From: Polaribacter vadi
GTDB lineage: Bacteria > Bacteroidota > Bacteroidia > Flavobacteriales > Flavobacteriaceae
Direction of reading: 5' to 3'
Assembly (NCBI RefSeq): GCF_001761365.1
Contig: NZ_CP017477.1
Location: 3,524,001 to 3,588,000 of the forward strand
Length of the DNA stretch: 64,000 nucleotides
Shown piece after piece: positions 2,196-35,683 of the stretch. Both the position numbers and the translations under genes were made by a program. The first letter of the stretch is position 1. Every line of letters starts with the position of its first letter. The notes under the pieces are model-generated. The model had not been told where the DNA came from. It did not search any database and saw only the letters and a program-made list of their open reading frames with translations.

Positions 2196-2205
2196 CATTA
2201 AAAAC

Positions 2206-12455: not shown

Positions 12456-15400
12456 TTAATTATTTATTTTTAAACGAACACCTTTTGAATGACTGCTAAA
12501 TTCAGGTGCATACATACTTTGGATTGTAGAAATTCCGTTGCTAAAGTTCCCAGCATTGTTTACACGAACATCATATTCAAATACATAAACACCTTTTGGT
12601 AACTTATCAAAAAAGAAATTGGTTGCAGCATCTTTAGTACTTTCATAATACCCTAAATTATCTTGCCATTTATAGGTTGATAATACATTAATTGGCTCAA
12701 CTCCAGAAGCTCTCATATCTTTTAAATGAATAAACTCCATATCTCTATCTGAACGCAATTCAATTCTTACCGTAATTAAATCGCCAACTTTAAGTTGCGT
12801 GTTTTCATTAATTAATTTTAGTTCTTTTCCAGTATCAGCATTTACTTTTAAAAACAATTTCTTGTTTAATTTTAACGGACTTTTTGCGGATGTAATTTTG
12901 TCTAAATCTTCAAAATATTGCCAATATAAACCTCCCCAAGCAATTCCTTTTTCTTTTTTGTTGATAGTAATTGTTGCCATTGCTGGTTTTATTTCTTCAG
13001 TATTCCAAGAAGTTTTAAAATAGCCAGTTCCAGCTTCCACTTTTACGTTTTCTATTTCTGATGGATTTATTTGTTGATTTCCAACTTTAATAGTTACCAT
13101 TTCTGTGATAGATAACCAATCATTTCCATTTAACAATAATGCATACACAGCTTCTGTAGTGGCTTTTGTAGTTTTCCATTGATTGGTTTGTTTATTTTTT
13201 AACAACCAAATTTTAAGATTATCAATAGTTTCAACATCATTTTCAATTTCAGAAAAAGTTTCAATCATTAGAGCTTGCGTTTCAACAGGTGCTTGATAAT
13301 AGTAATAACCAGCAGTATTGCTTTTCCAATACATTCCTAATTCATCAGAAGTTATCGAATTTTCTTTTAAAGATTTTAGAATCTTGTTTGCAACTGTTTT
13401 TTCATCAGCTCTAAAAAGTGATAAGGCAATTTGTCCTTTTGCATATAAATTATAAGCATTCCAATATTTTGCAGACTGATTTTGATAATATTTTACAGCA
13501 GATTTTGTTGTATCATCTAAAGAAATATCACCATAAAAACTACGCATATATAAATACTGGATGGTAGCATAGTTCAAATTATTTTTTGATAAATATTCTT
13601 CGTATTTCTTTTCGCCTTCTTTTTTAGATTTTGATTCCTCTTTAATTTTTCTAGCTCTTTCCAAGAGTTTTTCATAATTTTCTAAGAGTTCATCATCTAA
13701 AAATTTCACAGCTTTTTCAATCATGTTTTTGGTTGATGGATCAAAATCAGTAACTCCTAATTTTTGTAGATGCCCAAAACCAGTTGCAATATGTTGGGTA
13801 ATAAACGTATTTGCATATTTACTGCCTTTAAACCAAGGAAACCCACCAGAATTCATTTGGTTTTCCTGCAATTTGTTAATGGCTCTTTCTTGCTCGTTTT
13901 TCATTTTATTTAAATCGAATAACAACGCAATTCTCTTTTTTTGTTCGGTTTCAGATTGTGCATCTCTTAACCAAGGCGTTTCTTGAATGATTAACGATTT
14001 TAACTCTTGGTTTTTTTCTAAATTCGATAAAAGTGCATCAGAAGATTTCCAAGCATTAAAAACATTTTGAATTTTAGGGTTTGAATTCGCCACAAAACTC
14101 GCTAACGTATTTGCATAATATCTAGAAAAAATTTGTTCTGAACATTCATAAGGATATTCCATTAAATAAGGCAAAGCCTGAACTGCAACCCAAACAGGAT
14201 TTGAGGTCATTTCTAGTGTTAACTTATGATTTTTTAACGTTGATGAAGTTGAATTCTTCAATTTGTCCAACGTAAAAGTTTTAGTTTCGTTCGATTTAAT
14301 AAACATTGGAAGTGTTTCTGTAACCAACATTCTATTGGTTAAAACAGGCAACACATTTTGTTCTCCATCAGAAAAATCGCCAGATTTTGCCACAATTTTA
14401 TATTGAACAGCTTGCATATTTTCTGGAATTGCTAAACTCCAAGAAACGTTTGTATTTCCATCTTTATCAACTACAAAATTCTTGTTTGATTCTAGGTTTT
14501 GTAATTCCGAATCAATTTCTTTTCCAGAAATAGCATCTGTTAATATCAATTTTGCAAAACCACTTAATTGATTATTTGTTAAGTTGGTAATTTTTGCATT
14601 CAACGTAATTGTATCTTTTTCTCTCAAAAATCTTGGTGCATTTGGCACCACCATTAATTCTTTTTGAGTAACAGTTTGCAAGGTTTTTGTAGCTGATTTT
14701 AAAGTTGTTGAATGTGCTAATAATTGCAATTTCCATCTTGTCAAGGCTTCTGGCATTGTAAAAGAAAAACTCACTTTACCATTTTCATCTGTTTTTAACT
14801 GTGGATAAAAGAAAGCAGTTTCTTTAAAGTTTTTACGTGCTTGCACTTGAGATAATGCTGCATCTATTTTTTCTTGCCCAGATTTTGTGGTGATAATTAC
14901 AACGCCATTTGCACCTCTTGAACCATAAAGTGCAGTTGCAGCTGCGTCTTTTAGAATAGAAATATTTGTGATGTTACTTCCATTTTCATCAAAAGAATCC
15001 ACAATAACACCATCAACAACATACAAAGGTTCTGTATTTCCATCTAAAGAACTTACTCCTCTAATTGAAATATTTTTATCAGAACCAGGTTGTTCAGAAA
15101 CGCCATCTATAGTAACTCCAGCAACTCTTCCTTCTAAAATACTATTTATATCAGAATCATAAGCTACTTTTTCATAAGAAATAGATGCTTTTGAATAAGC
15201 TTTTCTATTTGTTCCATAACCAACAACGACAACTTCATCCAAAGAGCTAGCATCTTCTTCTAAACTTACATCAATATTTGTTTGAGAATCGATTAAATAT
15301 TCTACTGATTTATATCCTAAATAATTCACAACCAAAACATCTCCTTTTTTTATTTTGATGGAATAATTACCATCAAAATCTGTTTCTGTTCCAAAAGAGG

Positions 15401-18400
15401 TTCCTTTAATTTGAACATTTACTCCAGGCAAAGGTTCTCCATTCTTATTACTGATTAAACCTGTAACTGTACCATCAAAATCTGTTCTTGTACTATTAAT
15501 TTTATTTTTAGTTTCTCTTAAATATTGTTGATTTAACCATCTGTTATTATTCAAACTAAAGCCAAACCAATTGTAAGAACTAGTACCAATTGATGGGATT
15601 TGATAATAATTTCTTTCATTATTTTTGATGTAAAAACTAGTATTTCCAAAACTTTTATTGGCATTACTAGTTTGGTAAGAACTGTAGTTTTGTTTTCCAG
15701 CAATTGGATTAAAATTCCAATTATGAGCTTTAAAATCATCTAAAGACGCATCATACATGCTTGCTAAAACTTCTGCTGCAACTGCATCATTTTTATCATC
15801 TTTGATGGTAAAACTCCAAGTTTCATTTTGACCAGGTTGTAATTTATCTCTAAAAATATTGGTGATAATTTCTATAGACTCTTGCTTTTCAGGAACATTA
15901 ATAAGTAGGTTTCCACTTTCGAAATAATTGTAATTAACATAGTGATATTTAACAGCAAAACCACCTACATCTTCCTTATTTATAGGAATTTTAATTGTTT
16001 CTATACAGTTGTTTAATTTGATCAATTTCGTGTCAACAATTTTATGATTCTTTTCAATTTGAACAATTACTGTCATGTTTTTAGAAGCAGAACCCATTTG
16101 AATTTCAACTTGATCACCCACATTGTAAAAAGTTTTATTTGTGTTGATCGTAAAAAGTTGATTATCGGCTACATTTTTATCTTTTGAAGAGAAAATTGTA
16201 ATTCTTTTTTCGTCTTTTACTTCTTGTCCAAATTTATCTTCGCTTTCTAAAACAACGATATATTTTCCTGAAAGCCAACTTTTAGTGTTTTTTAAAATGA
16301 TTTCTTTTGATGATTCTGTATCAAACTTTTCTGTAAAAACAAGTGCTCCTTTTTTCCAGTTTTTTTCATCACCTTCATCATCTGTATACGGATCATTTGG
16401 AAACAATTTTCGGAATTCATTTTCAGAAATATCTTGATAATCTGGAGCAGACCAAGGTCTGTTTCTTAACGGATTTTTTGGCGCTTGTAATTTGTAAATT
16501 TTAACAATACCTTTTGCAGCGACAAACTCATCATTTAAATTTTTTGTTTCAATTTTAACAATCGTTTCTTTTTGATTTTTATCAATTTTATCATCAATCA
16601 AAATAGAAGCAATTAAAGAATGATAACCAACTTTTACAATAGTTGTTGCACTTCTTGTTTCGCCATTAATGTCAGTAACATCCGCAGTTATTTCATAATT
16701 AAAAACGGGGTTACTTTCTTTGTCTACACTTTCATCAGGGATCGCCTTAAATTTGATAAAGAAATTACCAGATGCATCTGTGATGCTTTCTCCATTGGTA
16801 ATTTCTTGCGAATTAGAAGTCGGATTTGGTCTTCTCCAATAATACCAACTAGGATATTGCACTTTTCTGTGTACTCTATAAACCACTTTTGCATCAGTAA
16901 TATTTGCACCAGAAAACGCTTTTGCAAAACCATTAATTTTAATTGAATCGTTTATTTTAAAACTTTCTGTGATGGGTTTAAATTCGGTCTCAAACTTTGG
17001 TCTTTTATATTCTTCTACAGAAATTGTAACAGAATTATTATAATCGATATCAAAATCTGCATTCTTGTAAAATTTACTTTTTTGTGTAGAACTTTCATCA
17101 ACATCAATTGTAAATTCGCCTGTTAAACCATTGTTTGGAATTATAAATTGGCCAGCAACAGAACCAAAATCGTTTAGTTTTAAATCTAACGTTTTTACAA
17201 TTTGGTTATTCACATCATACAAAGTAACCTCAACAAATTCGTTTTTAAAAACTTCGGATGTATCTCCTTGTTTTTTAATAACAATTGTTTTAAAATATAC
17301 AATTTGTCCTGGTCTATAAATACTTCTATCTGTGAAAATAAATGGTTTTATAATGATTTCTTCATTTGCATTATTCTCATTGTTATTAGAGTTTTGATTG
17401 TACAAATAATTATTATCAAAAATTGCAAAATCATTTTTAGTTGAAATTGTAATTTCTACATTATTGTAGTAATCGTTACTTTTGTAAGAAGCAAAACCAT
17501 TTTTATCCGTTGTTAATTTTTTGTTGATTAATCTGCCATTATTTCTTTTTTCATTTTGTAAATGAATTTCAGCATTCTTAATTGGTTTTCCTGTAGTTCT
17601 ATCAACTACTTGATAATTGTATCTTCCATCAAAAGTATTTTCAATCAATGTTAAGTTGGTTACTTGAATTGTGGTAGTTCCGTAAACTGAGTTTTCGTTT
17701 AAATCATCATTTTCTGAGGCCAAAATTAGATACATTCCACTTTCAAATTTTGGTACAATAACTTCAGTTGAATGTTCTAAATAATCATCTTCATTTCTTA
17801 GTTTGTGATTCCAAGTTTTTAATTTTTCTAACTTGCTGATAAATGCCTTTTTATCATCAAACTTATAAATTTTATTGAATTCCTCTAGTTGTTTTTGATT
17901 GATTTTATACCCCGTAAAAAATAACTTTTCGACATTTTTATAGGTAACTAAAAGTCTCGAATTTTTAGCAATAGGAATATATTCCTCAGCTAAAATAGAA
18001 AGCGTTTTTTGCTCAATTTGATTTTTTAAAACAAAACATTTTTGTGCTCCTAAACTCTTTGGGAAATCTTTTATAACAGTATTACAAATATCAAGAGCTT
18101 CTTTATTCTTCGCTTTATTTTTATAAATTTCAGCAATTTCAAATGCATACAAACCACTTGCTTCATCATTCTTAAAATTTTCTTCCGAGGTTTTTAACGT
18201 TTCTAATAGAATACTATCCTTATTTTCGAAAGTTGCATTTTGATACACAAAATTAATTCGCTGAACATCGATATTTGCAAACGCATTTTTATTGTTTGTA
18301 ATGCTATGTAAATGAAGTAAATTTTGATAAATTTTTAAAGCATTCAATTCTAAAGACAAACTATCTTTTGATGTGATTTTTAACGTGGAAAATGTTTTAG

Positions 18401-19076
18401 CATCACTCAAATAATCAGAACTATCAATCGTAAATTGATAAGAAGGTTTGGTGATGGAAGTCTCTGAAGATTTATAGAATTGAAGAGCGTTATTCGCTAA
18501 AAAATCGAATAGAGTAGGAGTGTATATTTTAGCAGTATGTTGAAGTTGTAAAATATCGGAAAACTCATCAATATTAATTTTTTGTAATAACTTTTCCTCT
18601 TGTAAAGATGCTTTGAAATACGTGTGAATTTCCTCAAAAAGCGTGTCTAAATCCCAAGTTCTAAAATCATTAACATCGACTTTATCTTGAGTTTTTGTTC
18701 GGTTATAAAATTTATATCTATTTTGAGTAAAATATTGCCAATATAAGTTCGCTAAAACATTTTCTAACACATTTTTTGTTGGAGATACATTTTTAGCAAT
18801 TTGCTCTTTAAAATTATGAATTACCTTTAGTTGTGCATCCTCTTCTAATGTTAATGAAAATTTACTTTTGTAAAAAAGCGACTTTATAATTTGTGAAGAA
18901 TTGTTCGTTTTTTCTGCTTTTGTATAAATTTCTTCTACAATTTTTAAAGCCGATTTTGGCAAACCATCAACCTCAAATTTTTCGACTTGTTGCCAAAGTT
19001 TCTCAAAATCGTTTTGAGCATTTGTGGTTAAAGAAAATAAGAATATCATTACTATTGTTGTTGTAAATTTTTTCAT
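12456..19076 (-). CDS. Alpha-2-macroglobulin family protein with inserted SusC-type TonB plug
   Basis: A 2206-residue protein with a signal peptide (about 1-20, ending TNAQ) and no lipobox. Residues 20-500 are mostly helical. An MG2-type segment, FTDRSIYRPGQIVYFKT, lies near 580. The A2M core, QLKTDENGKVSFSFTMPEALTRW, lies near 1420-1450. The thioester site is CSEQ at about 1645-1648, and the alpha-helical toroid (NQMNSGGFPWFKGS) follows. Bacterial A2Ms trap proteases in the periplasm. Unusually, residues about 1199-1400 form a carboxypeptidase-D-like repeat (GEPLPGVNVQIKGTSFGTET) plus a TonB plug (LDEVVVVGYGT, LYGSRGANGVVIITTKSG), inserted just before the A2M core, where a bait region would be. 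The frame is uninterrupted. It is a single-gene unit. Confidence 0.88.
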   Translation of the reverse strand: MKKFTTTIVMIFLFSLTTNAQNDFEKLWQQVEKFEVDGLPKSALKIVEEIYTKAEKTNNSSQIIKSLFYKSKFSLTLEEDAQLKVIHNFKEQIAKNVSPTKNVLENVLANLYWQYFTQNRYKFYNRTKTQDKVDVNDFRTWDLDTLFEEIHTYFKASLQEEKLLQKINIDEFSDILQLQHTAKIYTPTLFDFLANNALQFYKSSETSITKPSYQFTIDSSDYLSDAKTFSTLKITSKDSLSLELNALKIYQNLLHLHSITNNKNAFANIDVQRINFVYQNATFENKDSILLETLKTSEENFKNDEASGLYAFEIAEIYKNKAKNKEALDICNTVIKDFPKSLGAQKCFVLKNQIEQKTLSILAEEYIPIAKNSRLLVTYKNVEKLFFTGYKINQKQLEEFNKIYKFDDKKAFISKLEKLKTWNHKLRNEDDYLEHSTEVIVPKFESGMYLILASENDDLNENSVYGTTTIQVTNLTLIENTFDGRYNYQVVDRTTGKPIKNAEIHLQNEKRNNGRLINKKLTTDKNGFASYKSNDYYNNVEITISTKNDFAIFDNNYLYNQNSNNNENNANEEIIIKPFIFTDRSIYRPGQIVYFKTIVIKKQGDTSEVFKNEFVEVTLYDVNNQIVKTLDLKLNDFGSVAGQFIIPNNGLTGEFTIDVDESSTQKSKFYKNADFDIDYNNSVTISVEEYKRPKFETEFKPITESFKINDSIKINGFAKAFSGANITDAKVVYRVHRKVQYPSWYYWRRPNPTSNSQEITNGESITDASGNFFIKFKAIPDESVDKESNPVFNYEITADVTDINGETRSATTIVKVGYHSLIASILIDDKIDKNQKETIVKIETKNLNDEFVAAKGIVKIYKLQAPKNPLRNRPWSAPDYQDISENEFRKLFPNDPYTDDEGDEKNWKKGALVFTEKFDTESSKEIILKNTKSWLSGKYIVVLESEDKFGQEVKDEKRITIFSSKDKNVADNQLFTINTNKTFYNVGDQVEIQMGSASKNMTVIVQIEKNHKIVDTKLIKLNNCIETIKIPINKEDVGGFAVKYHYVNYNYFESGNLLINVPEKQESIEIITNIFRDKLQPGQNETWSFTIKDDKNDAVAAEVLASMYDASLDDFKAHNWNFNPIAGKQNYSSYQTSNANKSFGNTSFYIKNNERNYYQIPSIGTSSYNWFGFSLNNNRWLNQQYLRETKNKINSTRTDFDGTVTGLISNKNGEPLPGVNVQIKGTSFGTETDFDGNYSIKIKKGDVLVVNYLGYKSVEYLIDSQTNIDVSLEEDASSLDEVVVVGYGTNRKAYSKASISYEKVAYDSDINSILEGRVAGVTIDGVSEQPGSDKNISIRGVSSLDGNTEPLYVVDGVIVDSFDENGSNITNISILKDAAATALYGSRGANGVVIITTKSGQEKIDAALSQVQARKNFKETAFFYPQLKTDENGKVSFSFTMPEALTRWKLQLLAHSTTLKSATKTLQTVTQKELMVVPNAPRFLREKDTITLNAKITNLTNNQLSGFAKLILTDAISGKEIDSELQNLESNKNFVVDKDGNTNVSWSLAIPENMQAVQYKIVAKSGDFSDGEQNVLPVLTNRMLVTETLPMFIKSNETKTFTLDKLKNSTSSTLKNHKLTLEMTSNPVWVAVQALPYLMEYPYECSEQIFSRYYANTLASFVANSNPKIQNVFNAWKSSDALLSNLEKNQELKSLIIQETPWLRDAQSETEQKKRIALLFDLNKMKNEQERAINKLQENQMNSGGFPWFKGSKYANTFITQHIATGFGHLQKLGVTDFDPSTKNMIEKAVKFLDDELLENYEKLLERARKIKEESKSKKEGEKKYEEYLSKNNLNYATIQYLYMRSFYGDISLDDTTKSAVKYYQNQSAKYWNAYNLYAKGQIALSLFRADEKTVANKILKSLKENSITSDELGMYWKSNTAGYYYYQAPVETQALMIETFSEIENDVETIDNLKIWLLKNKQTNQWKTTKATTEAVYALLLNGNDWLSITEMVTIKVGNQQINPSEIENVKVEAGTGYFKTSWNTEEIKPAMATITINKKEKGIAWGGLYWQYFEDLDKITSAKSPLKLNKKLFLKVNADTGKELKLINENTQLKVGDLITVRIELRSDRDMEFIHLKDMRASGVEPINVLSTYKWQDNLGYYESTKDAATNFFFDKLPKGVYVFEYDVRVNNAGNFSNGISTIQSMYAPEFSSHSKGVRLKINN

Positions 19077-19453: not shown

Positions 19454-20806
19454 ATGAACATTCATTTTATTGCAATTGGAGGAAGTGCCATGCATAATTT
19501 AGCAATTGCTTTACACCAAAAAGGATACCAAGTTTTTGGAAGTGATGACACCATTCACAATCCGTCAAAAGCTCGATTAGAAAAATATGGTTTATTACCA
19601 AAAGAATTTGGTTGGTTTCCAGAAAAAATATCGTCAGATTTAGATGTGATTATTTTAGGAATGCATGCAAAAAAGGACAATCCTGAATTGTTAAAAGCAC
19701 AAGAATTAGGGTTGAAAATTTATTCTTATCCAGAGTTTTTATATGAACAATGTAAAAATAAAACGCGTGTTGTAATTGGGGGTTCTCATGGAAAAACAAC
19801 CATTACTTCTATGATTTTGCATGTGTTAAATTATCATGAAAGAGATGTAGATTATATGGTTGGTGCACAATTAGAGGGGTTTGAAACGATGGTTCATCTA
19901 ACAGAAGAAAACGATTTTATGGTTTTAGAAGGTGATGAATATTTGAGTTCGCCCATTGATATGCGTCCTAAATTTCATTTATATAAACCAAATATCGCAC
20001 TTTTAAGTGGCATTGCTTGGGATCATATTAACGTTTTTCCAACCTTCGAAAATTATAAAGAACAGTTTAAAATCTTTACAGATTCCATGATAAATGGAGG
20101 AAGTATGGTGTATAATATTGAAGATGAACATGTGAAAGACATTGTAGAATCTTCTGAAAACCACATTAAAAAATATCCTTACGAAACACCCAATCATTTT
20201 ATAGAAAACGGAATTACATATCTAGAAACTGCAGAAGGGAATTTACCTTTAGAAATTTTCGGAAAACATAACTTACAAAATTTAGCAGGTGCAAAATGGA
20301 TTTGTCAACATATGCAAGTTGATGAAGACGATTTTTACGAAGCAATTGCAAGTTTTAGTGGCGCAAGCAAGCGTTTAGAGAAAATTGCTGAAAGTAATTC
20401 AACCGTAATTTTTAAAGATTTTGCCCATTCACCTAGTAAAGTTGCTGCCACTACAAAAGCAGTAAAAGAGCAATACTCAGAAAGAACTGTTTTGGCATGT
20501 TTAGAATTACATACGTATTCTAGCTTAAATGCCGAATTTTTAGCAGAATATAAAGGAGCACTAGATTTTGCAGATAAAGCAGTTGTTTTTTATTCTCCTG
20601 ATGCTGTTAAAATTAAACAATTGGAAGAAGTTACTCATCAACAAATTGCCAATGCTTTTGAAAGAGAAGATTTGGTTATTTATACCAATCCAGCAGCTTT
20701 TAAAGAGTTTTTGTTTGCTGAAAATTTAACAAATTCAGCAGTTGTTTTAATGAGTTCTGGTAATTATGGAGGTTTAGATTTTGATGAAGTTAAGGGGTTG
20801 GTTTAG
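19454..20806 (+). CDS. mpl: UDP-N-acetylmuramate:L-Ala-gamma-D-Glu-meso-DAP ligase
   Basis: A 450-residue Mur ligase. The N-terminal UDP-binding segment is MNIHFIAIGGSAMHNLAIAL, the ATP loop is GGSHGKTT (residues 109-116), and FKDFAHSPSKVAATTKAV marks the C-terminal domain. The opening IGGSAMHNLA and the overall length favour Mpl over MurC (which has GIGG.GM). Mpl reattaches recycled murein tripeptide to UDP-MurNAc in the cytoplasm. Its 3' end overlaps the convergent nucleotidyltransferase gene by 17 bp. Confidence 0.88.
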   Translation: MNIHFIAIGGSAMHNLAIALHQKGYQVFGSDDTIHNPSKARLEKYGLLPKEFGWFPEKISSDLDVIILGMHAKKDNPELLKAQELGLKIYSYPEFLYEQCKNKTRVVIGGSHGKTTITSMILHVLNYHERDVDYMVGAQLEGFETMVHLTEENDFMVLEGDEYLSSPIDMRPKFHLYKPNIALLSGIAWDHINVFPTFENYKEQFKIFTDSMINGGSMVYNIEDEHVKDIVESSENHIKKYPYETPNHFIENGITYLETAEGNLPLEIFGKHNLQNLAGAKWICQHMQVDEDDFYEAIASFSGASKRLEKIAESNSTVIFKDFAHSPSKVAATTKAVKEQYSERTVLACLELHTYSSLNAEFLAEYKGALDFADKAVVFYSPDAVKIKQLEEVTHQQIANAFEREDLVIYTNPAAFKEFLFAENLTNSAVVLMSSGNYGGLDFDEVKGLV

Positions 20807-21908
20807 CTTTTTTTAAACCTAACTGAACCAATTTTTCATTTTGCCAATTTTTATCGGTTGTCCTTTTTACGAGCCAGGTTCTTTTTTCTTTATCAAAAAT
20901 TGAATCTTTAATGATTTTTAATCTTTGTTTTATAAAAAGTTTTGTTTCAATTTTTTTATGAAACTTTTTACTGTTAGCATTATTTTCGATGTTTTTTGTA
21001 AAGAAGTCAATATATTCTTTTGATTCCTTAGTTTCTATATATTTTAACGATTTAGGATGGTTAAAAATAACAGCACAAGAGGCTAAGAAGCAATTTAAAG
21101 GATTTTTAAGGTTGATAAAATCATTAAAAGCCGATTTTGCAGTAGTTTTTTTAGAAAGTAAAAAAACATCATAGGCATTTCTTAAAGAAATATCTTTGTA
21201 ATGAAAACCTTTATCATTTATCTGTTTAGCAATAATGGATAAATTTAGTTGATTTTTAAAACTCAAAAAATGAATGCCATGAATGATTTGTGCATCTTTT
21301 TTAATATACCTATAATTGAATTCATCTGCATACTCTTCAAGTAATAATTCCTTGTGAATTTCTACAGCTGCAATATTGTTTGCTTTTTGTAGCCTTGGAT
21401 AATGTTTAAACTGTGGAAAATCATAGGTTGTATCATGAACTTTAGAATACTCGAAATTTTGTAAAACCTCTATAGCTTTCGGATATTCCTCTTTAGAGAA
21501 AATAAAATCAATATCACCCACCATTCTTTCAGCAATATCTTCATACAAGCCTTCTAATAAATTTCCTGTTCCTTTTAAGAAAATAGGAGTGATGTTATTT
21601 GACAATAATAATTCATTAATTTCTTTAGCTTGTTCTATAATTTGCTCATTTCTATCACGATTTAAATCAGTTATATATATCATATACTCAACCAAATCTG
21701 TTGGTAGATAATGTAGAAAATCAGCTTTTTTAAAGTTGCAATATAAAGCAGGAAAAACAAAATGAGCTGTGCTAACTTTCACAACAGCATCCCAATCAAT
21801 AGAATTTGATTTTAGTTCTTTTTCAACGATTTTTTTATGATGTTCTTCGTGATTAATTGTCAAACATTTTCCAACAAAAAGTAAGGTTTCTTTATAAGTC
21901 ATTGTCAA
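20790..21908 (-). CDS. Nucleotidyltransferase family protein (NTP_transf_5-like)
   Basis: A 372-residue protein. The nucleotidyltransferase motif is visible as FLKGTGNLLEGLY (residues 110-122) followed by RMVGDIDFIF, in which Asp132 and Asp134 are the metal-binding pair. A histidine-rich N-terminal part (HEEHHKK) and a basic C-terminus (KNWQNEKLVQLGLKKAK) are also present. The family is found near peptide-modification and exopolysaccharide genes, and its substrates are largely unknown. Its start overlaps the kinase gene by 17 bp, so translational coupling is likely. A second ATG, two codons in, is an alternative start. Confidence 0.75.
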   Translation of the reverse strand: MTMTYKETLLFVGKCLTINHEEHHKKIVEKELKSNSIDWDAVVKVSTAHFVFPALYCNFKKADFLHYLPTDLVEYMIYITDLNRDRNEQIIEQAKEINELLLSNNITPIFLKGTGNLLEGLYEDIAERMVGDIDFIFSKEEYPKAIEVLQNFEYSKVHDTTYDFPQFKHYPRLQKANNIAAVEIHKELLLEEYADEFNYRYIKKDAQIIHGIHFLSFKNQLNLSIIAKQINDKGFHYKDISLRNAYDVFLLSKKTTAKSAFNDFINLKNPLNCFLASCAVIFNHPKSLKYIETKESKEYIDFFTKNIENNANSKKFHKKIETKLFIKQRLKIIKDSIFDKEKRTWLVKRTTDKNWQNEKLVQLGLKKAKPTP

Positions 21909-23028
21909 ATATTTTAGTAACCGTTTTTATCATTTCTTCATTATTAGAATAGGTTAATTGATAGCAATTTAAACCACCAAACCAATCTAAAAATAATTGA
22001 GCATTTTCTTTTTTGGGTGATAACCAGGAATCTGGAATTAGTTGCTGAAAAGCATCAATTTTAGAAATCTTTTTACACCTAAGTTTTGCCTCTTTTTCAT
22101 ATTTGATAAAAACCAAATCGTTGCAAGGTATATGTGCAAAGAAATTAGCGTTATTTGGTTTTAAATAACGAACAACTTTATTCAATCTTGTAAAATTATA
22201 CTCTTTACTAGTTGCTAGTTCAGGGTAAATTGGCATCAACGTTTTTAAACTATTTTGTTTGATAGATATGGATGCAGGAAAACTATATACTTCTTGTTTT
22301 TTTGCATCAACAGGAACAAAATCATCTGCCAAACAAGTAAAACCATTAGCCTGTAAAAGTGCTAAAGAAGTACTTTTTCCATTGCCAGAATCACCTAAAA
22401 ATAACATTGATTTTTTTCCATTACTAATAGCAGATGCATGAAAAACTCCCAACCATTCCTCTTCTTTCTTTTGATGTATTTTTTGAATGATTTCCATTGA
22501 AAACTTTCCTTGAAAATAATGAACATCATGATGACTCCAAGATCCAATATAGTCTTTATCTACATACAGAAATATAAAATTGCTATTGATAAAAACTTCA
22601 AATTCATTGTCAAAATTTTCAACAGCATCAATTACCAAATGCTCAAATTTAGGATGTATTAAAGATTGCTCTTTTTCGTTTAAATAAGAGATTTTAAAAA
22701 TAACTTCATTTATTTTATAGAAGGTTACAAAATTATAAGAAGATGGTTTTTTTATGTCTCTATCATCGTTAATAACTTCTTTTTTAGTGTTATTATTAGG
22801 TTCGTAAAGTTTCTTTTTTAGATTTAGAATAAAATCTTCAGCTTTTTCTAAAGGGACATCTAATTTTTTTGAAAGTGCATTTGCTATAATTTCTACAGAA
22901 ATTCCTTTGCTTAATCTTTTTAAAATATCGGCTGTAGTATTTTCTAAGACTACATATTTGTTGGTGTTTTCAAACCAAGCAATCGTTTTGTCTTCGATAA
23001 CTTTATACAGCGTTTTCATTGATTTCAT
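21892..23028 (-). CDS. PqqD-like domain fused to HprK-like serine kinase
   Basis: A 378-residue protein. Residues about 4-77 look like a PqqD-type RiPP recognition element: TLYKVIEDKTIAWFENTNKY, then VLENTTADILKRLSKG and helices to KKKLYEP. Residues about 95-370 resemble HPr kinase-related proteins, with P-loop GDSGNGKST (212-220) and acidic ADDFVPVD (234-241). PqqD-like domains bind leader peptides, while HprK-like enzymes in lasso-peptide clusters phosphorylate peptide serines. The gene lies between a small peptide gene and a nucleotidyltransferase gene. The substrate is inferred to be the peptide, not HPr. ATGs at 23028 and 23019 are both possible. Confidence 0.75.
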   Translation of the reverse strand: MKSMKTLYKVIEDKTIAWFENTNKYVVLENTTADILKRLSKGISVEIIANALSKKLDVPLEKAEDFILNLKKKLYEPNNNTKKEVINDDRDIKKPSSYNFVTFYKINEVIFKISYLNEKEQSLIHPKFEHLVIDAVENFDNEFEVFINSNFIFLYVDKDYIGSWSHHDVHYFQGKFSMEIIQKIHQKKEEEWLGVFHASAISNGKKSMLFLGDSGNGKSTSLALLQANGFTCLADDFVPVDAKKQEVYSFPASISIKQNSLKTLMPIYPELATSKEYNFTRLNKVVRYLKPNNANFFAHIPCNDLVFIKYEKEAKLRCKKISKIDAFQQLIPDSWLSPKKENAQLFLDWFGGLNCYQLTYSNNEEMIKTVTKIFDNDL

Positions 23029-23066
23029 AGTTGATAAATATACTTACAATAAATATATAAAAATAA

Positions 23067-23093
23067 AAACGCCTCAAAAATTTTGAGGCGTTT
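23067..23093 (-). terminator. Strong hairpin between peptide and kinase genes
   Basis: A near-perfect palindrome: AAACGCCTCAA, five central bases, TTGAGGCGTTT (11-13 bp stem). It is followed on the minus strand by TTTTTATTTTTATA. It lies 20 bp after the peptide gene's stop and 38 bp before the kinase start. It should stop most transcripts after the peptide gene while allowing some read-through. Confidence 0.8.
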
Positions 23094-23112
23094 AAAGTTG
23101 AAATAATTTTTA

Positions 23113-23283
23113 TTAAAATCCAGTTCCAGGATCTTGAGGAACAGATGCTGCTTGTGCTTTTTGTGGATTTAAAATCATATAGGTTCCTAAAGCAGTTAAA
23201 GCTGCATATTTTCCGTAATTACCTATTTTTTTAATAGCTTCTTTACGAGTAATTTCTTGTTTATTGTCTATGTTTTTTTGCAT
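23113..23283 (-). CDS. 56-residue leader-like peptide (candidate modified peptide precursor)
   Basis: A short gene, ATG at 23281-23283 and TAA at 23113-23115. Residues 1-20 are highly charged with the Tat-like text TRKEAIKKIG. Residues 21-40 are hydrophobic (YAALTALGTYMIL). Then AQA (43-45) gives a signal-peptidase-like site, leaving the tail ASVPQDPGTGF with one serine (47) and one threonine (54). The architecture of leader, hydrophobic part, AxA and Pro/Gly-rich tail resembles short unannotated peptides that I recall from other Bacteroidota. It follows the lamin-tail gene by 24 bp, and a strong hairpin separates it from the PqqD-HprK gene. The function is not known. Confidence 0.7.
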   Translation of the reverse strand: MQKNIDNKQEITRKEAIKKIGNYGKYAALTALGTYMILNPQKAQAASVPQDPGTGF

Positions 23284-23307: not shown

Positions 23308-26223
23308 TTATTCTAAGGTTATTTTTTTGTTTAAGCTACCAGTTTCAGTTTCTAATTGAACAATGTAAATTCCTGGAGATAATGCAGGTAGAGTAATATC
23401 TTGAACTCCATTAGAAGTAAATGAATTCTCTAAAACTTGCTTTCCTAAAATAGAATATAATTTAATAGAAGCTTTTCCTTGAGAGATCCCAACAATTCTT
23501 AAATTAGAATTGGTTGTTTTGTAGATGCTGATGTTATCCATATTTAAAGAATCAACACTCAAAGCACTACTGTTTTTTGTATGTAGATAAAAACGTCCAA
23601 TTCCATCTAAAGCAACATCCGATGTTACTTTGTAAGTACTATTTACCTCATCTAATCTTGTAAAGGTATTGGTAAGTCTATCTTCTAAATATACATTGAT
23701 ATCAGCAGGAAGGTTTAAAGCTTCTGCAGAAAAAGAAATTTCTTTATTAGCATCAACAATTAAACCAATAGGAATTACCATGTTTTCATGGTTTGAATTT
23801 GGTAAAGATTGTAATTGATATTTTTTACCATCACTTTCAACTAAATCAGAATATAATGAAAAACTGTAAGAAACACCCCCAAATAATTTACCATCATAAC
23901 CTGCATCATATCCTTTTGTAGTGTTATCAATATATAGAATTCTCGCAAACCTTTCATTATTCCCTTGACTAGCGGTTAAAATAATTTCAGGTCTTGTATT
24001 TGTTGATTTTTGAAATGTATCTGAACTCTGATGAGATGCATCAGCAATTTCAAAAGTTACATTAGCTGCTGAAGTGGCTTCTACAAAAAATCCTTGACCT
24101 GGTGCTATTTCATAAGCAGAATCAGCACTAGAAGTTTTAGTTGTATAGGATGAGCCATTCCAGAAATAAAAATCTGTATCTATATTTGCAGAATTTGTAG
24201 TGTAAAAAGTTCCTAGCGTAATAAATGCAGTAAATGGGTTCCCTATTAAATTAAAATTATTAACACCTTGTGTTAGTAAAAAAGTTTGATCAGAATTATA
24301 GATACCTGTTCCTGTAAAGGAGATATTACCTGCACCTGACCTTATTATACCATATCCACGACCAACTGCAAAAGGGCTTGAAGTCCCTTCTTCCATATAT
24401 CTCCAAAAACCTGTTGCACTATCTGCAGTACTAGCTCCATCAGAATCTGTATCAGAAGATGAATTGTCATACCAACTTATACCTCTGTTATCTACATCTT
24501 GCGTGCTTGATGGTATAGCATTATTTGTTACCCATGTGTTATTATAATTTTCATCAATTACAGGTGAAGACATATAATACCATTGACTACCATTTGTTAA
24601 AGCTCTATTATAAGTTACTGTTCCAGAAAGTGTCCCAGTGGAAATTAAAGTAGCACCAGAATTTATTGTAGCTGAATTAACAGTAACAGCTGTGCTAACT
24701 GTAGGTTGATTTGAAGTTTTCAAAATTTGAACATCATCACTAGCTGTTGGTGCAGTTCCTGTGCTCCAATTAGAGCCTGTTGTCCAAGAATTATCAGTTG
24801 CTCCTGTCCAAGTTAGGGTAGAAAAAGGTAAGTTTGAAGAATTATATCTTCCTGGAGAAGCTGTAACAGGGTTTGATGAAATTGTAGAATGTTTTACAAA
24901 AGTTCCAGTTAAATCATCGTTTCTTCCAATTGATTCAGCAGAATTAGCTTCACTCCCATAAGTATATGTTGCTATTGTTGTTGCTCCAGAATTTGCAAGT
25001 GTAACAGTATCTCCTCCATTGTTTAAAGAAAGAGTTCCAGCTGTATCTGCAAAACCTGATATTCCTGTTGGAGTTCCATCTCCAAAAATAACAACAGAAC
25101 CTCCTGCTGGTATTGTAATTGCACCAAAAGTATATCTAACAGAACCTGCATCAGAAATTGTGTAACCAGTTAAATCGTGAGAGGTAATATCTAAATTAAC
25201 TAACTCAACAAACTCATCATCACCAGTATCTATAGTTCCATCTCCATTTGCATCAATACCAGTTGGATCCGCTAAAATTTCATTGATAATAATGTTTGGT
25301 AAATCATCGTCTTCATTCGTAACTATTGTTGTTACATCAGCAACTGGGGCATAAGCATTATCAGAAGAAGCATCATCTACAGCTACAGTTATAGTAACAT
25401 CTACGTTTCCATCAGCTAAAGCATCATCAACTCCAGTTGCTGTAATAGTTTGTGGAGTATTCCAGTTTGCGTTAGTAAATGTAAGTGTTGCAGGAGAAAC
25501 TGTCACTTCTCCAGTATCTCCACTTGTAATATTTAAAACTACGTCTGTAGTAGGTTCTAGATTAAGAACTGCTGTAAAAGTAGCAGTTGTAGTATCTTCT
25601 TTTGTATTATTAGAAGCTGTACTTAAAGTGATACCTGGTGTAGGAAGTGTTACTGTAAAAGATGATGTTGTGTAGCCTTGGCTACCACCATTTTCAGAAA
25701 ATTCAAAACCAACTACAAGCGTGTTTACTCCTGAAACATCTAAATTTAAAATTGAATAGTTAACATTATCCCCATCTGCAGAAGGTATATCAGCTGTTTC
25801 AACCCTTGCACCTCCATCAAGAATATAAAAATATTTGAATTTATTTTCATTAGCTCCAGAATTAACAGATAATGCAGAAATATCAACGGAAGTAATTGCA
25901 GATACATCTATATTTTGGCTTTGGAAAATTCCTTGCCCTCCCCAGTCATCAGAAACTAAAGCACCTCCATCTACTTTAAAAGAGTTTGCTGACGTATCAG
26001 AACTAGGAGTAGTTGTATAAGACAAAGACCATTGGTTACCAAAACTTCCAAAAGGCCCAACAGAAGCAGGTGCATCAACTGGTGGAGAGAGATCTGATGT
26101 ATGGTCTGCAAAACCATCTCCATCATTTGAGAAATCAGCATTATAAATTTGTGCTGATAAAGTTGAAATTGAAAAAGCAAAGACTAAAGTCAATGCAATT
26201 TTTAATGAGTTTTTCTTTTTCAT
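23308..26223 (-). CDS. T9SS-secreted lamin-tail domain protein
   Basis: A 971-residue protein with a signal peptide (ends LSAQ). In order it has an N-terminal beta region, a Calx-beta-like domain (about 195-305; EDTTTATFTAVLNLEPTTDV), a lamin-tail domain (about 305-465; IIINEILADPTGID, EFVELVNLD, LTGYTISD), a repeat-rich region with WTGATDNSWTTGSNWSTG, and a C-terminal type A sorting domain (about 890-971; SIKLYSILGKQVL, SPGIYIVQLETETG, KKITLE). The sorting domain directs export by the type IX system to the cell surface. Acidic D.NGDG repeats suggest calcium binding. It is the first gene of a minus-strand set that continues with the 56-residue peptide gene. Confidence 0.85.
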   Translation of the reverse strand: MKKKNSLKIALTLVFAFSISTLSAQIYNADFSNDGDGFADHTSDLSPPVDAPASVGPFGSFGNQWSLSYTTTPSSDTSANSFKVDGGALVSDDWGGQGIFQSQNIDVSAITSVDISALSVNSGANENKFKYFYILDGGARVETADIPSADGDNVNYSILNLDVSGVNTLVVGFEFSENGGSQGYTTSSFTVTLPTPGITLSTASNNTKEDTTTATFTAVLNLEPTTDVVLNITSGDTGEVTVSPATLTFTNANWNTPQTITATGVDDALADGNVDVTITVAVDDASSDNAYAPVADVTTIVTNEDDDLPNIIINEILADPTGIDANGDGTIDTGDDEFVELVNLDITSHDLTGYTISDAGSVRYTFGAITIPAGGSVVIFGDGTPTGISGFADTAGTLSLNNGGDTVTLANSGATTIATYTYGSEANSAESIGRNDDLTGTFVKHSTISSNPVTASPGRYNSSNLPFSTLTWTGATDNSWTTGSNWSTGTAPTASDDVQILKTSNQPTVSTAVTVNSATINSGATLISTGTLSGTVTYNRALTNGSQWYYMSSPVIDENYNNTWVTNNAIPSSTQDVDNRGISWYDNSSSDTDSDGASTADSATGFWRYMEEGTSSPFAVGRGYGIIRSGAGNISFTGTGIYNSDQTFLLTQGVNNFNLIGNPFTAFITLGTFYTTNSANIDTDFYFWNGSSYTTKTSSADSAYEIAPGQGFFVEATSAANVTFEIADASHQSSDTFQKSTNTRPEIILTASQGNNERFARILYIDNTTKGYDAGYDGKLFGGVSYSFSLYSDLVESDGKKYQLQSLPNSNHENMVIPIGLIVDANKEISFSAEALNLPADINVYLEDRLTNTFTRLDEVNSTYKVTSDVALDGIGRFYLHTKNSSALSVDSLNMDNISIYKTTNSNLRIVGISQGKASIKLYSILGKQVLENSFTSNGVQDITLPALSPGIYIVQLETETGSLNKKITLE

Positions 26224-31909: not shown

Positions 31910-32818
31910 ATGATAAAATACATAAAAAGACAAGATTTAAATGTCGTGAAATACGATGCCTGTATAGAGGATTCTCTACAAAGTAGAATTTATGCTTTTT
32001 CTTGGTATTTAGATATTGTTGCAGACAATTGGGATGTTTTGGTTTTGGATGATTATAAGGCTGTAATGCCAATTCCTATTCGAAAAAAATATGGCATTAA
32101 ATATGTATATCCACCTTTTTGGTTGTTAGAATTGGGCGTTTTTTCTTTGGATGATTCCATTGATTATCAACCTTTTTTTGACATGCTTTTTAAGAAATTT
32201 AAAGCTGTAGAAACAAGATTAAATGTTGATAATAGGATTCAAAAATCAGCAACTTTTATGTTGGATAAACAAATGCAGCTATTATCTATTAAAGATGATT
32301 ATGAAGCTGTTTTTGATGGGTATAGAAAAGATAGGAAAAAAGATTTAAGAAAAGCGCAAAACGCAAATTTAGTAGAAAAATGGGGAGATTCTCCAAAGAA
32401 TTTAATTCAGCTTTTTAAAAATAATGTAGGCAAAAGAACGCCATATATTACGAGTAAAGACTACACCGTTTTAGAGGAATTAATGGAAACGTTTATGAAT
32501 AATGGAGTAGGAGATATCCTATCCATTTACAATAAAAAAAATACATTGGTTGCAGCTGGTTTTTTCTTAAAACATAAAAATAAAGTAACTATTTTAGTTT
32601 CGTCTACAGATTTTAATCATCGTAAAAATGGCGAGAATACTTTTTTAATAGATCGTGCAATTTTTAAATATCAACATAATTATGATATTTTTCATTTTGG
32701 AGGTTCATCCATGGAAAGTATTGCAAAGTTTTTCTTAAGCTTTGGTGCAGAAACGCATACGTATCAACAAATAAAATATAGTAATTTGCCTTTTTGGGTA
32801 AAATTATTTAAAAGCTAA
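31910..32818 (+). CDS. GNAT/FemAB-like acyltransferase
   Basis: A 302-residue protein. The text FDGYRKDRKKDLRKAQNANL followed by LVAAGFFLKHKNKVTILVSSTDFNHRKNG and FHFGGSSMESIAKFFLSFGAE matches the FemAB/BioF2-like acetyltransferase fold found in cell-surface polysaccharide clusters. It is likely to transfer an acyl or aminoacyl group to a sugar or lipid-linked intermediate in the cytoplasm. It abuts the deacetylase gene, and its 3' end overlaps the convergent asparagine synthase-like gene by 4 bp. Confidence 0.72.
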   Translation: MIKYIKRQDLNVVKYDACIEDSLQSRIYAFSWYLDIVADNWDVLVLDDYKAVMPIPIRKKYGIKYVYPPFWLLELGVFSLDDSIDYQPFFDMLFKKFKAVETRLNVDNRIQKSATFMLDKQMQLLSIKDDYEAVFDGYRKDRKKDLRKAQNANLVEKWGDSPKNLIQLFKNNVGKRTPYITSKDYTVLEELMETFMNNGVGDILSIYNKKNTLVAAGFFLKHKNKVTILVSSTDFNHRKNGENTFLIDRAIFKYQHNYDIFHFGGSSMESIAKFFLSFGAETHTYQQIKYSNLPFWVKLFKS

Positions 32819-34404
32819 AACTTGTTTTTAGAAAAATAAAGATACCATTGAGCAATAATTTCGTTGTAATCTTTAGACATTCTTTGAAATTTAAGCTTTT
32901 TTAAACGCATTTCATCAACCATTTGTTGGGTAATGGGTTTGTAATTATTCCAATCATTTTTTTCTAAAACTTTTTGTTTGATAAATGTTGGCAACAAAGG
33001 CTTAATTTTATTTTTAATCTTCTGTAGTTCGATTGCTTTTGTAGTGGGTTGAATTTCCTTTTTAAAATATACATTCTGTGGTTTAAAATACGTTTTAATT
33101 AAAACATCATCAAAAAGTGTTTTCATTACTTTATATTTTATGGGTACAGTTTTAAAGAAATTTAGCAGCTCTTTATCCCAAAAAGGAAAGCGATATTCAT
33201 AACCAAAAAACGCATAAAAACTAGCTGAATTAAAAACGTATTTTGCTATTCTTTCTTTAATATTATAATCTTCAAAAACTGTTTCTGGTAGTTTTTGATG
33301 ATAGCTTTCATCGAATCTTTTTAAATTTTTTGTAAGTTCTTTTTTTAATTTTATTTCATCTTGGTTTGATAATTTATAATTATCTAATTTTTTTGCAAGA
33401 ATTAGGCTTTCAATTTCTATTGTTTTTAAATTTTCAGGTATTGTTTTGTAAAACTCGCTACCTCCTAAAATGTCGCCAGCAAAACCAGGAATAAAAATGG
33501 CGTCATCAGTAATTATTTTTTCTTTTTGTAGATGTTTAATTGCGAAATATTCTTGTAAATAGGGCATTGAAGATAATTTACCTGCAAAATGAGCATATTC
33601 TTTAAACTCATCTGTGTGTATATATCCTTCAATTAATTTAGAATTATATTCAACAAAAAACCATTTGAAACCTAATGCTTTTGCTGCTTTTTTTGAGTTT
33701 TCTATTTCAAAACTGTTTTTATTCCCATAGGTAAAACAGATTACATTTTTATACTGATGTTTTTTTAACATTACAGCAATTAATCGAGAATCATAACCAC
33801 CACTTAAAGGAATTACAGCAGTTCTATTATTTAAAGATGTAATAAATCTTTTAAAAGAATTTTCGAAAGCAATAACTGCTTTGTTTTTTAACTCATCATA
33901 AGAATCGGAACTTTCTTTAGGTATGGCATAAGAATAAAAGAAATTACTTTCTACAATTGTATTATTTTCTACAATTAAAGATTCACTTGGCTGTATTTGA
34001 AAAACATTTTTTAACAATGTTTTTTTACCATGTGTGTAATTAGATGCTTTGAATTCAATTTCTGACAACCCATCAAAATCATCAATTTTAAAAAGATTTT
34101 TAAGGTAAAAAATGTCATCACTAAAATATAGTTGGTTGTTTTGTAAAGTATAAAAAATAGGGAATGATCTTGTAAGATCAGATGCTGAAAAAATCTTGTT
34201 TCCATCCTTAAAAACAAGGGTAAAAACACCATTTAATTCTGATAAAAGTTCTTTAAATTGATGACTATTCTTAATTTTAGAAACATAATTTAAAGCATTT
34301 TCTTTTTCGTAAAAGAGATCATCAACATAAAAATATCCTTTAAAAAAGAAAGTTGCTGTTTTGTACCACTTAAAACCTTTGTTATTTTTTAAAGTTATGT
34401 TCAT
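32815..34404 (-). CDS. Asparagine synthase-like protein lacking the glutaminase cysteine
   Basis: About 529 residues from the ATG at 34404 (MNITLKNNKG); an ATG at 34419 overlaps the upstream gene. The N-terminal part keeps the class II glutaminase-like fold (LNGVFTLVFKD, DLTRSFPIFYT), but the residue after Met is Asn, not Cys, so glutamine hydrolysis is not expected. The ATP pyrophosphatase motif PLSGGYDSRL is intact near residue 204. Relatives amidate sugars or peptides using ammonia. Its neighbours are a flippase and glycan-modifying genes, which suggests a surface-polysaccharide substrate. Confidence 0.78.
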   Translation of the reverse strand: MNITLKNNKGFKWYKTATFFFKGYFYVDDLFYEKENALNYVSKIKNSHQFKELLSELNGVFTLVFKDGNKIFSASDLTRSFPIFYTLQNNQLYFSDDIFYLKNLFKIDDFDGLSEIEFKASNYTHGKKTLLKNVFQIQPSESLIVENNTIVESNFFYSYAIPKESSDSYDELKNKAVIAFENSFKRFITSLNNRTAVIPLSGGYDSRLIAVMLKKHQYKNVICFTYGNKNSFEIENSKKAAKALGFKWFFVEYNSKLIEGYIHTDEFKEYAHFAGKLSSMPYLQEYFAIKHLQKEKIITDDAIFIPGFAGDILGGSEFYKTIPENLKTIEIESLILAKKLDNYKLSNQDEIKLKKELTKNLKRFDESYHQKLPETVFEDYNIKERIAKYVFNSASFYAFFGYEYRFPFWDKELLNFFKTVPIKYKVMKTLFDDVLIKTYFKPQNVYFKKEIQPTTKAIELQKIKNKIKPLLPTFIKQKVLEKNDWNNYKPITQQMVDEMRLKKLKFQRMSKDYNEIIAQWYLYFSKNKF

Positions 34405-34405
34405 A

Positions 34406-35683
34406 TTATTTGTACGCAATTTTTTTCTCTTTCGCTGTTTTTAAAAGATAGATAAAAATAAGGATATTGAACAACATACCTACAAGAGAGAAAAAAATTA
34501 ATGAAATTACAATATCATTATAATAATAATAGCCTAAAAACAAACCTAAAAATCTAAAAATTAATAGTAAAACATCAAAAATAACCATGGTTTTTTGCTT
34601 GTTTAAAATCATGATTAAAGAGTTTATTGGGTTGCTTAAAAAAGCAAAAAATAACCATGGAATTAATATTCTAGCATACAAACCAACATCTTGCCAATCG
34701 TCTCCAAAAAGAAAATCTAAATAAAAAGAAATTACAAAAAGAGGTATAAATATAAAAGCACTAATCAACAATAAATTTTTAGCTGTCTTTTTTACAAGTG
34801 TGTGCAAATTACCATCTTGATTATAAACTTTACTTGCTTTATTAAAAAAAACTTGACTTACAGATTGCTGAAAAATGCCAACTGGAGCTCTCATAAATTT
34901 TATAGCCAACCCATAAATTCCAGAACTTGCCAATCCAAAATATTTGGTGATTAACAATACAGGAAGCTCATTAGAAAGATTGTTTGTTAAATTGATTATC
35001 GTGTTAAAAACAGGAATATCTTTATATTTTTTAGCCAGAAAAAGCATGTTTTTAAAAGAGATTTCTTTACGAGCACTCTTTATAGATTTTACTGAAACTT
35101 TTAGTAGAAAAAGTAATTGTAAAAATTGCCCTAAAAGCATACCAGGAATTAAACCTATCCCATTAAATGCACTAAAACCAGTTGCAACTTGAGCAACACT
35201 CATTGTAGAAGACTTTACCAACAATCCTTTAGAGATGTTTTTAAAGTTATTCATTCTATTATTCCAATAATCAAAAATAGAAACACTCCCAAAAAGCAAA
35301 ACGCTTAAAGGCAAAAGATAAATGAAATTTGCAAGTTTATGAATATTAAAAAAATCGGCTATTTGATCATTAAAAATAAAAAGTATTAGTAACAGTAAAA
35401 TTGAATAACCAATTAAAACAATTAAAGAAAAACCTAATAAATTAAGAGCATCTTTATTTTTTTTCGGTAAAACAATCGCAAACTCGTATTGTAATGTTGC
35501 TAAAGGTTTCAATATAATAGTGGCTGATGAAAACAGCATGTAAATTCCAAAAAGTTCGGTAGAAAAAAGCCTTGTAAGTATTAAAATTGATGCATAGATT
35601 ACTATTTGACTCAAAGCAGAACCTGTTACTAATGTTAATACATTTTTAACAAACTCTTTTTTTAAAAAAGAAAATAGTTGCAT
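34406..35683 (-). CDS. Oligosaccharide flippase (Wzx/MOP family)
   Basis: A 425-residue protein with about twelve helices. The start FVKNVLTLVTGSALSQIVIYASILILTRLFS, followed by ELFGIYMLFSS, is typical of Wzx-like lipid-linked oligosaccharide flippases. The middle segment RAPVGIFQQSVSQVFFNKAS is also characteristic. It moves undecaprenyl-linked repeat units across the inner membrane. TATATTTG on the minus strand at 35708-35715 is a good -7 element. The asparagine synthase-like gene follows directly, forming a two-gene operon. Confidence 0.85.
   Translation of the reverse strand: MQLFSFLKKEFVKNVLTLVTGSALSQIVIYASILILTRLFSTELFGIYMLFSSATIILKPLATLQYEFAIVLPKKNKDALNLLGFSLIVLIGYSILLLLILFIFNDQIADFFNIHKLANFIYLLPLSVLLFGSVSIFDYWNNRMNNFKNISKGLLVKSSTMSVAQVATGFSAFNGIGLIPGMLLGQFLQLLFLLKVSVKSIKSARKEISFKNMLFLAKKYKDIPVFNTIINLTNNLSNELPVLLITKYFGLASSGIYGLAIKFMRAPVGIFQQSVSQVFFNKASKVYNQDGNLHTLVKKTAKNLLLISAFIFIPLFVISFYLDFLFGDDWQDVGLYARILIPWLFFAFLSNPINSLIMILNKQKTMVIFDVLLLIFRFLGLFLGYYYYNDIVISLIFFSLVGMLFNILIFIYLLKTAKEKKIAYK

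Follow-up and report, generated by a model that had tools for sequence, protein, structure and literature searches.

Introduction

Phosphorylation of a peptide serine by an HprK-like kinase with a His-Lys-Asp-Asp set of residues has been described in the tailoring of the lasso peptides paeninodin and pseudomycoidin (PadeK, ThcoK, PsmK), where a nucleotidyltransferase-like enzyme, PsmN, acts on the phosphoserine and is reported to install hexoses on it (PMC9266682). Another described set is that of the linear polyphosphorylated peptides (LPPs), which consists of LppA, LppK, LppB, LppS, and LppN (Popov et al., 2026; PMC13381572). That paper describes LPPs as restricted to Bacillota, often near capsule loci, reports that deletion of lppN left the detected product unchanged in the host used, and states that the biological role is unknown for both the LPP and the paeninodin cases. 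Here we analyzed a stretch of 64,000 nucleotides of Polaribacter vadi (NZ_CP017477.1, positions 3,524,001 to 3,588,000; hereafter, the window), whose minus strand carries, in this order, open reading frames (ORFs) for a large cargo of the type IX secretion system (T9SS), a 56-residue peptide, an HprK-type fusion kinase, and a nucleotidyltransferase (Table 1). The last three had been reported, with their motifs, in a preliminary description, and all of them were recovered. On balance, we favor the view that the locus belongs to a system that tailors peptides and is linked to one class of surface proteins exported by the T9SS. The peptides would then be a candidate substrate family, with thousands of database clusters, for a Bacteroidota version of the enzyme set formed by a peptide recognition element (RRE), an HprK-like kinase, and a nucleoside triphosphate (NTP) transferase, and their pairing with one class of T9SS surface protein makes the effect of the peptide (decoration, anchoring, or regulation) directly testable.

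Relation to described peptide-tailoring systems

The locus shares with the LPPs a linear precursor with a conserved N-terminal part and a variable tail, an HprK-like kinase (whose catalytic residues are kept here), an RRE (here a candidate RRE-like domain), and an NTP transferase, although the nucleotidyltransferase here is a PF14907 protein that we liken to LppN by description. In both, a serine lies near the leader cleavage site, being phospho-Ser3 in LppA and the second residue behind AQA in our peptide, for which the cut and the phosphate are predictions, and in both the leader would be removed by an enzyme of the signal peptidase type, again by prediction in our case. In contrast, the RRE is a discrete protein in the LPPs, whereas the RRE-like domain is part of the kinase ORF here; the LPP leader carries YxxP, whereas the window peptide has no Y-x-x-P and its conserved columns differ; the genome belongs to Bacteroidota, outside the described phylum; and no T9SS cargo partner is described in that paper. 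When the window ORFs around the locus were inspected by eye, with no profile search, neither a SipW-like peptidase nor an MsbA-like transporter was recognized. As far as the sequence tells, the system appears to work like an LPP system, with a shared enzyme logic; a discrete RRE and a YxxP leader were not found, the phylum is another, and a T9SS cargo is added, and we do not assign it to the LPPs. The preliminary description knew of no characterized system of this exact composition and missed the LPPs, a published near relative. The LPPs and the paeninodin-type lasso peptides are the closest known systems, and the locus is set apart by its leader, by the fusion of the RRE-like domain to the kinase, by its phylum, and by the link to the T9SS.

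With the lasso systems the locus has in common the HprK-like kinase and the nucleotidyltransferase-like enzyme, but the phosphorylated serine is C-terminal there and near the predicted mature N-terminus here. Moreover, the genes next to the kinase in the window include neither an asparagine-synthase-like cyclase nor a B2 protease; the other kinase loci were judged in this respect from ORF ends only. The nearest asparagine-synthase-like ORF that we recognized by eye (32815-34419, minus strand, IPLSGGYDSRLIAV) lies some 10 kb away from the kinase, and its neighbors look flippase-like and FemAB/GNAT-like.

A large peptide family with an invariant serine

Judged from its sequence and relatives, the 56-codon gene is a real gene and a member of a large unnamed family. 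A total of 7762 proteins, out of 7994 candidates scored, were related to the peptide at E ≤ 1e-3, and the labels of the best 120 are either "hypothetical protein" or automatic (Tat/twin-arginine signal, gluconate 2-dehydrogenase subunit 3, secreted protein). The ratio of nonsynonymous to synonymous differences (pN/pS) across 93 distinct codon-aligned copies was 0.13 (mean pN 0.082, mean pS 0.63, uncorrected). These two results, together with the near-perfect co-occurrence with the kinase described below, are why we regard the ORF as more than a chance reading frame. For the study of gene neighborhoods we kept the best 80 of 450 relative-encoding stretches from named genomes (79 loci); as these are mostly from Polaribacter, the locus set is biased towards that genus.

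The peptide carries the sequence TRKEAIKKIG, an AQA triplet, and the tail ASVPQDPGTGF. To describe conservation we used 233 distinct peptides, 115 from the loci and 120 from metagenomes, two of them shared. Ten columns round to 100% (R13, A16, K25, A28, T30, A31, G33, L38, P40, and S47), while in the tail P49, P52, and G53 are kept in 95-98% and F56 in 85%; an aromatic residue occurs among the last four positions in 109 of 114 peptides. Ser47 is present in all 114 anchored locus peptides, as well as in one unanchored peptide aligned by eye (115/115 distinct), and in the 120 metagenome relatives listed (120/120). Its codons span both serine families (AGY in 65 of 93, TCN in 28 of 93). Of the two acceptors put forward in the preliminary description, Ser47 and Thr54, the conservation favors the former, which is likely the phosphorylated residue. 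Position 54 is variable, with Gly rather than Thr as its commonest residue, and we rejected Thr54 for this lack of conservation.

Two paralogs have divergent tails. One, in locus L052 (6187-6327, plus strand), lacks the tail and ends at the serine (KAQASS), and lies behind an alpha/beta hydrolase-like ORF instead of a cargo; the other, in L088 (1501-1653, plus strand), has a short tail ending KAQAGSVPIG and follows what by eye is a hydrolase-like ORF, not a T9SS cargo.

Co-occurrence of the peptide and the kinase

We searched three draws of genomes, from the family, the order, and the phylum. Among the 149 genomes of the family draw, the kinase was found in 15, the peptide in 15 (E < 1e-8), and both in 14. 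These were single-sequence searches; the kinase reached E ≤ 1e-3 in 16 genomes, from which the partial 35-bit match of G141 was dropped, and sixteen genomes with a peptide match at E 0.02-0.98 were taken as chance. Profile searches of the 346 genomes of the order draw gave 10 genomes with the kinase (threshold > 100 bits, reached in 10 of the 20 genomes with any match), 10 with the peptide, and nine with both, and in the phylum draw of 395 genomes a full-length kinase (five of 10 genomes with any match) and the peptide were found in the same five genomes. The counts should be read knowing that the draws overlap, that family-draw genomes supplied the order and phylum profiles, and that related genomes are not independent, so that Fisher values overstate the association. 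Mismatches came from incomplete assemblies: G048 and G208 (82% and 72% complete) have only the kinase, with the match at a contig start, and G136 and G235 (84% and 66% complete) only the peptide. When a hand count over the three draws was limited to genomes at least 90% complete with either gene, 17 of 17 had both.

Besides that of G141, the kinase matches of 25-55 bits that we dropped were in G170, G190, G234, G251, G288, G316, G330, G361, G366, and G400 of the order draw and in G573, G655, G658, G664, and G702 of the phylum draw, plus a second, weak one in G397. With the exception of G397, none of these genomes has a peptide over threshold, and the dropped kinases that we examined, mostly from ORF ends, lie among sugar, glycosyltransferase, or lasso-like genes. 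A second HprK-like kinase in G397, a genome of the genus Polaribacter (L275:4796-5824, minus strand; Hpr_kinase_C E 1.5e-4, under the cut-off), adjoins a 125-residue ORF without a Pfam match and glycosyltransferase-like ORFs.

The two genes are not, however, fixed neighbors, as the next ORF encodes a kinase-like P-loop protein for just 13 of 85 named-locus peptides. The window genome has five peptides and one kinase, G442 has seven and one, and the kinase of G123 has no adjoining peptide, the two peptides of that genome being elsewhere. These counts show that one kinase faces several scattered peptides, up to seven per genome, which the preliminary description had missed. The co-occurrence supports the earlier proposal of the peptide as substrate of the kinase and nucleotidyltransferase pair, and so do related enzyme trios in two further loci from this order, of which one is lasso-like; for the kinase we hold this to be very likely.

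The kinase and the nucleotidyltransferase

HPr-rel-A cassettes include PqqD-like and nucleotidyltransferase genes. The preliminary description named this type, and HprK_rel_A (TIGR04352) is the best NCBIfam match of the window kinase, yet the score of 63.5 bits falls below the curated cut-off of 200. The same model is matched by 12 of 12 kinase family members scanned, and the candidate catalytic residues H197, K218, D235, and D236 are invariant in the family. The fused PqqD-like domain and the candidate peptide partner are further differences from HPr-rel-A. As for that domain, the kinase N-terminus matches PqqD (PF05402) with 20.2 bits and E 7.6e-4, under the cut-off of 23.4, and its predicted secondary structure follows the order EEE-HHH. 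The lasso RRE of TfuB1 in the PDB was reached at E 2.2 only, and the fold search hardly covered this region. A PqqD/RRE-like fold, which the preliminary description had assigned, is plausible from the sub-threshold match and the order of strands and helices, but not proven. The nucleotidyltransferase passes the Pfam cut-off for NTP_transf_5 (PF14907) with 120.8 bits. Its start is listed at a TTG (21908) in the set of ORFs, the ATG at 21902 being likelier; even from there it overlaps the kinase ORF by 11 nt.

Several kinase loci drew our attention by their surroundings. The kinase of G040 seems to be split by a frameshift, with two overlapping matches (L062:7233-8129, plus strand). By eye, L056, L062, L064, and L065, from several genera, are near nucleotide-sugar or polysaccharide-like genes, much as LPPs are reported near capsule loci, and L060, L061, L062, and L064 are beside ftsZ-like genes. 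An ORF of about 190 residues, beta-barrel-like, follows the nucleotidyltransferase in L058 (9083-9679), L059 (9319-9891), L060 (4044-4655, minus strand), L061 (9762-10346), L064 (5772-6329, minus strand), L262 (2036-2611), and L263 (2187-2783, minus strand). Scans of five of these ORFs gave one match over the cut-off of OMP_b-brl and two below it. We set it aside as a core part of the system, as it is absent from the window.

The constant neighbor is a T9SS cargo

What constantly adjoins the peptide is a large T9SS cargo, not the kinase, and this cargo, absent from the preliminary description, contains an unannotated module of about 420 residues. The loci contain 134 peptide ORFs, 118 of them distinct; 115 of these have an upstream ORF, in every case on the same strand, and for the other three no upstream ORF lies inside the analyzed stretch. 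A profile of the module matches 110 of the 115 upstream ORFs (109 with at least 200 bits) and 11 of the 638 other ORFs of the same loci (8 with at least 200 bits), counting with their own model the 19 upstream cargos from which it was built. We used this hidden Markov model instead of a regular expression for the T9SS tail, which matched 109 of the 115 and was dropped because 116 of the 638 other ORFs match it too. The median gap between upstream ORFs with a T9SS-like tail and the peptide is 27 nt; in the window it is 24 nt. Of 107 cargo ORFs, 106 (a count that includes the window cargo itself) match the window cargo, and the coverage on it is on average ≤7 per stretch before residue 450, 67 at residues 476-500, and at least 101 beyond residue 650. 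The front parts vary: in 11 cargos scanned with Pfam they were lamin-tail, FG-GAP with Ig-like, laminin-G/lectin-like, or haemagglutinin-like. The module of the window cargo reaches the cut-off of no Pfam or NCBIfam model and is predicted to be all-beta (predicted local distance difference test score 87). The sorting domain behind it passes the cut-offs of TIGR04183 and PF18962 (Por_Secre_tail), and the C-terminal domain (CTD) matches Flavobacterium T9SS CTD structures, the fold search being informative for the CTD only. The protein thus resembles T9SS type A cargos in its sorting domain and CTD fold, and differs from them in that a further conserved module, all-beta, precedes the CTD and a peptide gene lies behind. 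We found no earlier description of the pairing of such a peptide with T9SS in the literature, a weak negative since most subscription papers were outside the searched set.

Relatives of the module at E ≤ 1e-10 occur in 93 of the 149 family-draw genomes. The best module scores at least 228 bits in 17 of them, namely all 15 kinase genomes plus G066 and G121, and at most 144 bits in the others, this cut-off having been chosen after seeing the gap. Rows of the profile came from 11 of the 15 kinase genomes; the remaining four (G048, G055, G067, and G123) still score 228-434 bits. In the window genome 47 T9SS tails pass the cut-off, and each of the four modules is immediately followed by a peptide. 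Of the modules over 300 bits, a peptide follows 7 of 8 in G442, but one of nine in G305 and one of six in G045. In the stretches of G305 and G045 beside the kinase, tandem cargos precede a single peptide.

Organization of the locus

Terminator-like sites were more frequent in the 6.2 kb that we scanned than in shuffled sequence (6 vs. 2.3 expected), and one of them separates the peptide from the kinase (Table 1). Such a hairpin lies within 90 nt downstream of 84 of the 118 peptides, vs. 15 of 1000 stretches drawn at random from these loci, a control that replaced block shuffling, whose mean of 0.0 seemed too low; in the gaps between cargo and peptide there was none (0/94). From this distribution, the cargo and the peptide look like one transcription unit, and the kinase and the nucleotidyltransferase like another. 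The three-gene arrangement of the preliminary description is modified accordingly, with the hairpin dividing it and the upstream cargo added to the system.

Table 1. Features of the peptide locus, in window coordinates.
Feature	Position	Strand	Basis
Precursor peptide, 56 residues: leader-like residues 1-45 ending AQA, predicted mature tail 46-56 (ASVPQDPGTGF)	23113..23283	-	ORF, family, conservation, pN/pS
Ser47 codon, invariant serine, candidate phospho-acceptor	23143..23145	-	Conservation, codon families
Predicted mature peptide, putative signal peptidase cut behind AQA	23116..23148	-	Sequence, AxA-type triplet
Terminator-like 12-pair hairpin with T-rich tail, separating peptide from kinase	23067..23093	-	Hairpin scan
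PqqD-like/HprK-type fusion kinase, 378 residues, GDSGNGKST	21892..23028	-	Profiles, alignments, fold search
PqqD/RRE-like N-terminal domain of kinase (candidate), residues 1-75	22804..23028	-	Predicted three strands then three helices
NTP_transf_5 nucleotidyltransferase, motif GDIDF, from ATG	20790..21902	-	PF14907 match
T9SS cargo, 971 residues, lamin-tail domain at residues 309-423	23308..26223	-	ORF, Pfam/NCBIfam profiles
Unannotated all-beta C-terminal cargo module, about residues 476-895	23539..24798	-	Common to peptide-linked cargos
Cargo T9SS type A C-terminal sorting domain, about residues 896-971	23311..23538	-	Profiles; fold match to Flavobacterium T9SS CTDs

Proposed mechanism and alternatives

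The scheme we favor would run as follows. The fusion kinase would bind the 45-residue leader through its PqqD/RRE-like domain, and its HprK-type domain, judging from homology and the invariance of the residue, may phosphorylate Ser47 in the cytoplasm. By analogy with PsmN, the NTP_transf_5 enzyme could then cap the phosphoserine with a nucleotide or a sugar, and signal peptidase would cut behind AQA, leaving a modified peptide of about 10 residues in the periplasm. A single kinase would serve all the peptides of a genome in trans. Given the gene pairing and the co-occurrence, the peptide may act together with the module cargos, most simply by binding or decorating their shared C-terminal module at the cell surface. 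Several observations weigh against this scheme. On the side of the enzymes, PF05402 is unmatched by 11 of the 12 kinase family members scanned, hhalign of the kinase N-terminus with PqqD gives a probability of 40.5% (E 2.9e-4), a sequence search found no PDB relative of the nucleotidyltransferase, and no match to this enzyme occurs at the kinase locus L068 (G055). On the side of the cargo, none lies directly upstream of the peptide at L055, L066, and L123, while the peptides of L052 and L088 follow a hydrolase-like ORF; G121, a single contig 99% complete without a kinase or peptide match, has one module cargo of 292-295 bits, and G066, 80% complete, has one of 417-418 bits. Finally, cargos and peptides are not one-to-one: G305 has a single peptide against nine modules over 300 bits, G045 one against six, and G397 three against seven. 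Cargo-specific peptides, either immunity proteins or one-to-one chaperones, are disfavored, as peptides behind different cargos are alike and one stands for nine in G305.

Other explanations differ in what becomes of the peptide. It could be modified and released as a free-standing product (a pheromone, an antimicrobial, or a binder), encoded behind cargos merely for co-expression. LPPs and lasso peptides, made by similar enzyme sets, are treated as natural products (PMC13381572), and the likeness of the peptides behind different cargos of one genome means that they are not fitted to the variable part of the cargo. Nevertheless, the partner is specifically one class of cargo (110/115), whose full-score members are nearly confined to kinase genomes (15/15, plus G066 and G121), and no peptide exporter stood out when the window ORFs around the peptide were read by eye, where no search was made, so we consider a free product unlikely. 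A different use of the same pairing would be as an anchor, in which a PorU-type sortase joins the C-terminus of the cargo to the N-terminal amine of the mature peptide, whose capped phosphoserine would attach it to a glycan of the cell surface. The peptide would then do, as a gene product, what the seryl linking sugar does in Porphyromonas. In P. gingivalis, the C-termini of cargos become joined to a seryl-bearing sugar (PMC7468200), and a figure legend in a review names short peptides among the nucleophiles of the PorU reaction (PMC10202324). The peptide is, moreover, encoded with type A cargos. However, just 4 of the 47 over-cut-off T9SS tails of the window genome come with module and peptide, so ordinary cargos manage without them, and we find an anchor distinctly improbable.

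The peptide might also stay uncleaved, as a small membrane-anchored phospho-switch on the cytoplasmic side that tunes the expression or export of the co-transcribed cargo. The strong conservation of the leader, hydrophobic stretch included (R13, A16, K25, T30, G33, L38, and P40 near 100%), would be needless in an ordinary signal peptide and speaks for such a switch, but an AQA-type triplet with x-Ser behind it and then a short tail rich in Pro and Gly resembles signal peptidase processing, and there is in our judgment only a slim chance that the peptide works this way. Last, some relatives have database records reading "Tat" or "twin-arginine", as if the peptide were a small protein targeted by twin-arginine translocation and unrelated to the kinase. 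A twin arginine at the motif was found in 0 of 235 peptides, for which reason we rejected a Tat signal, and as the co-occurrence with the kinase is near perfect this explanation is hardly credible.

Other observations

Elsewhere in the window, the ORF at 12456-19076 (minus strand) encodes what by eye is an alpha-2-macroglobulin-like protein of 2206 residues, the middle of which seems to contain a SusC/TonB plug and a carboxypeptidase-regulatory-like insert (GEPLPGVNVQIKGT..., YGSRGANGVVIITTKSG). Outside the window, the locus L055 has, at 1080-3003 of the plus strand, five tandem ORFs of 119 residues with near-identical ends, repeated with a period of 391 bp.

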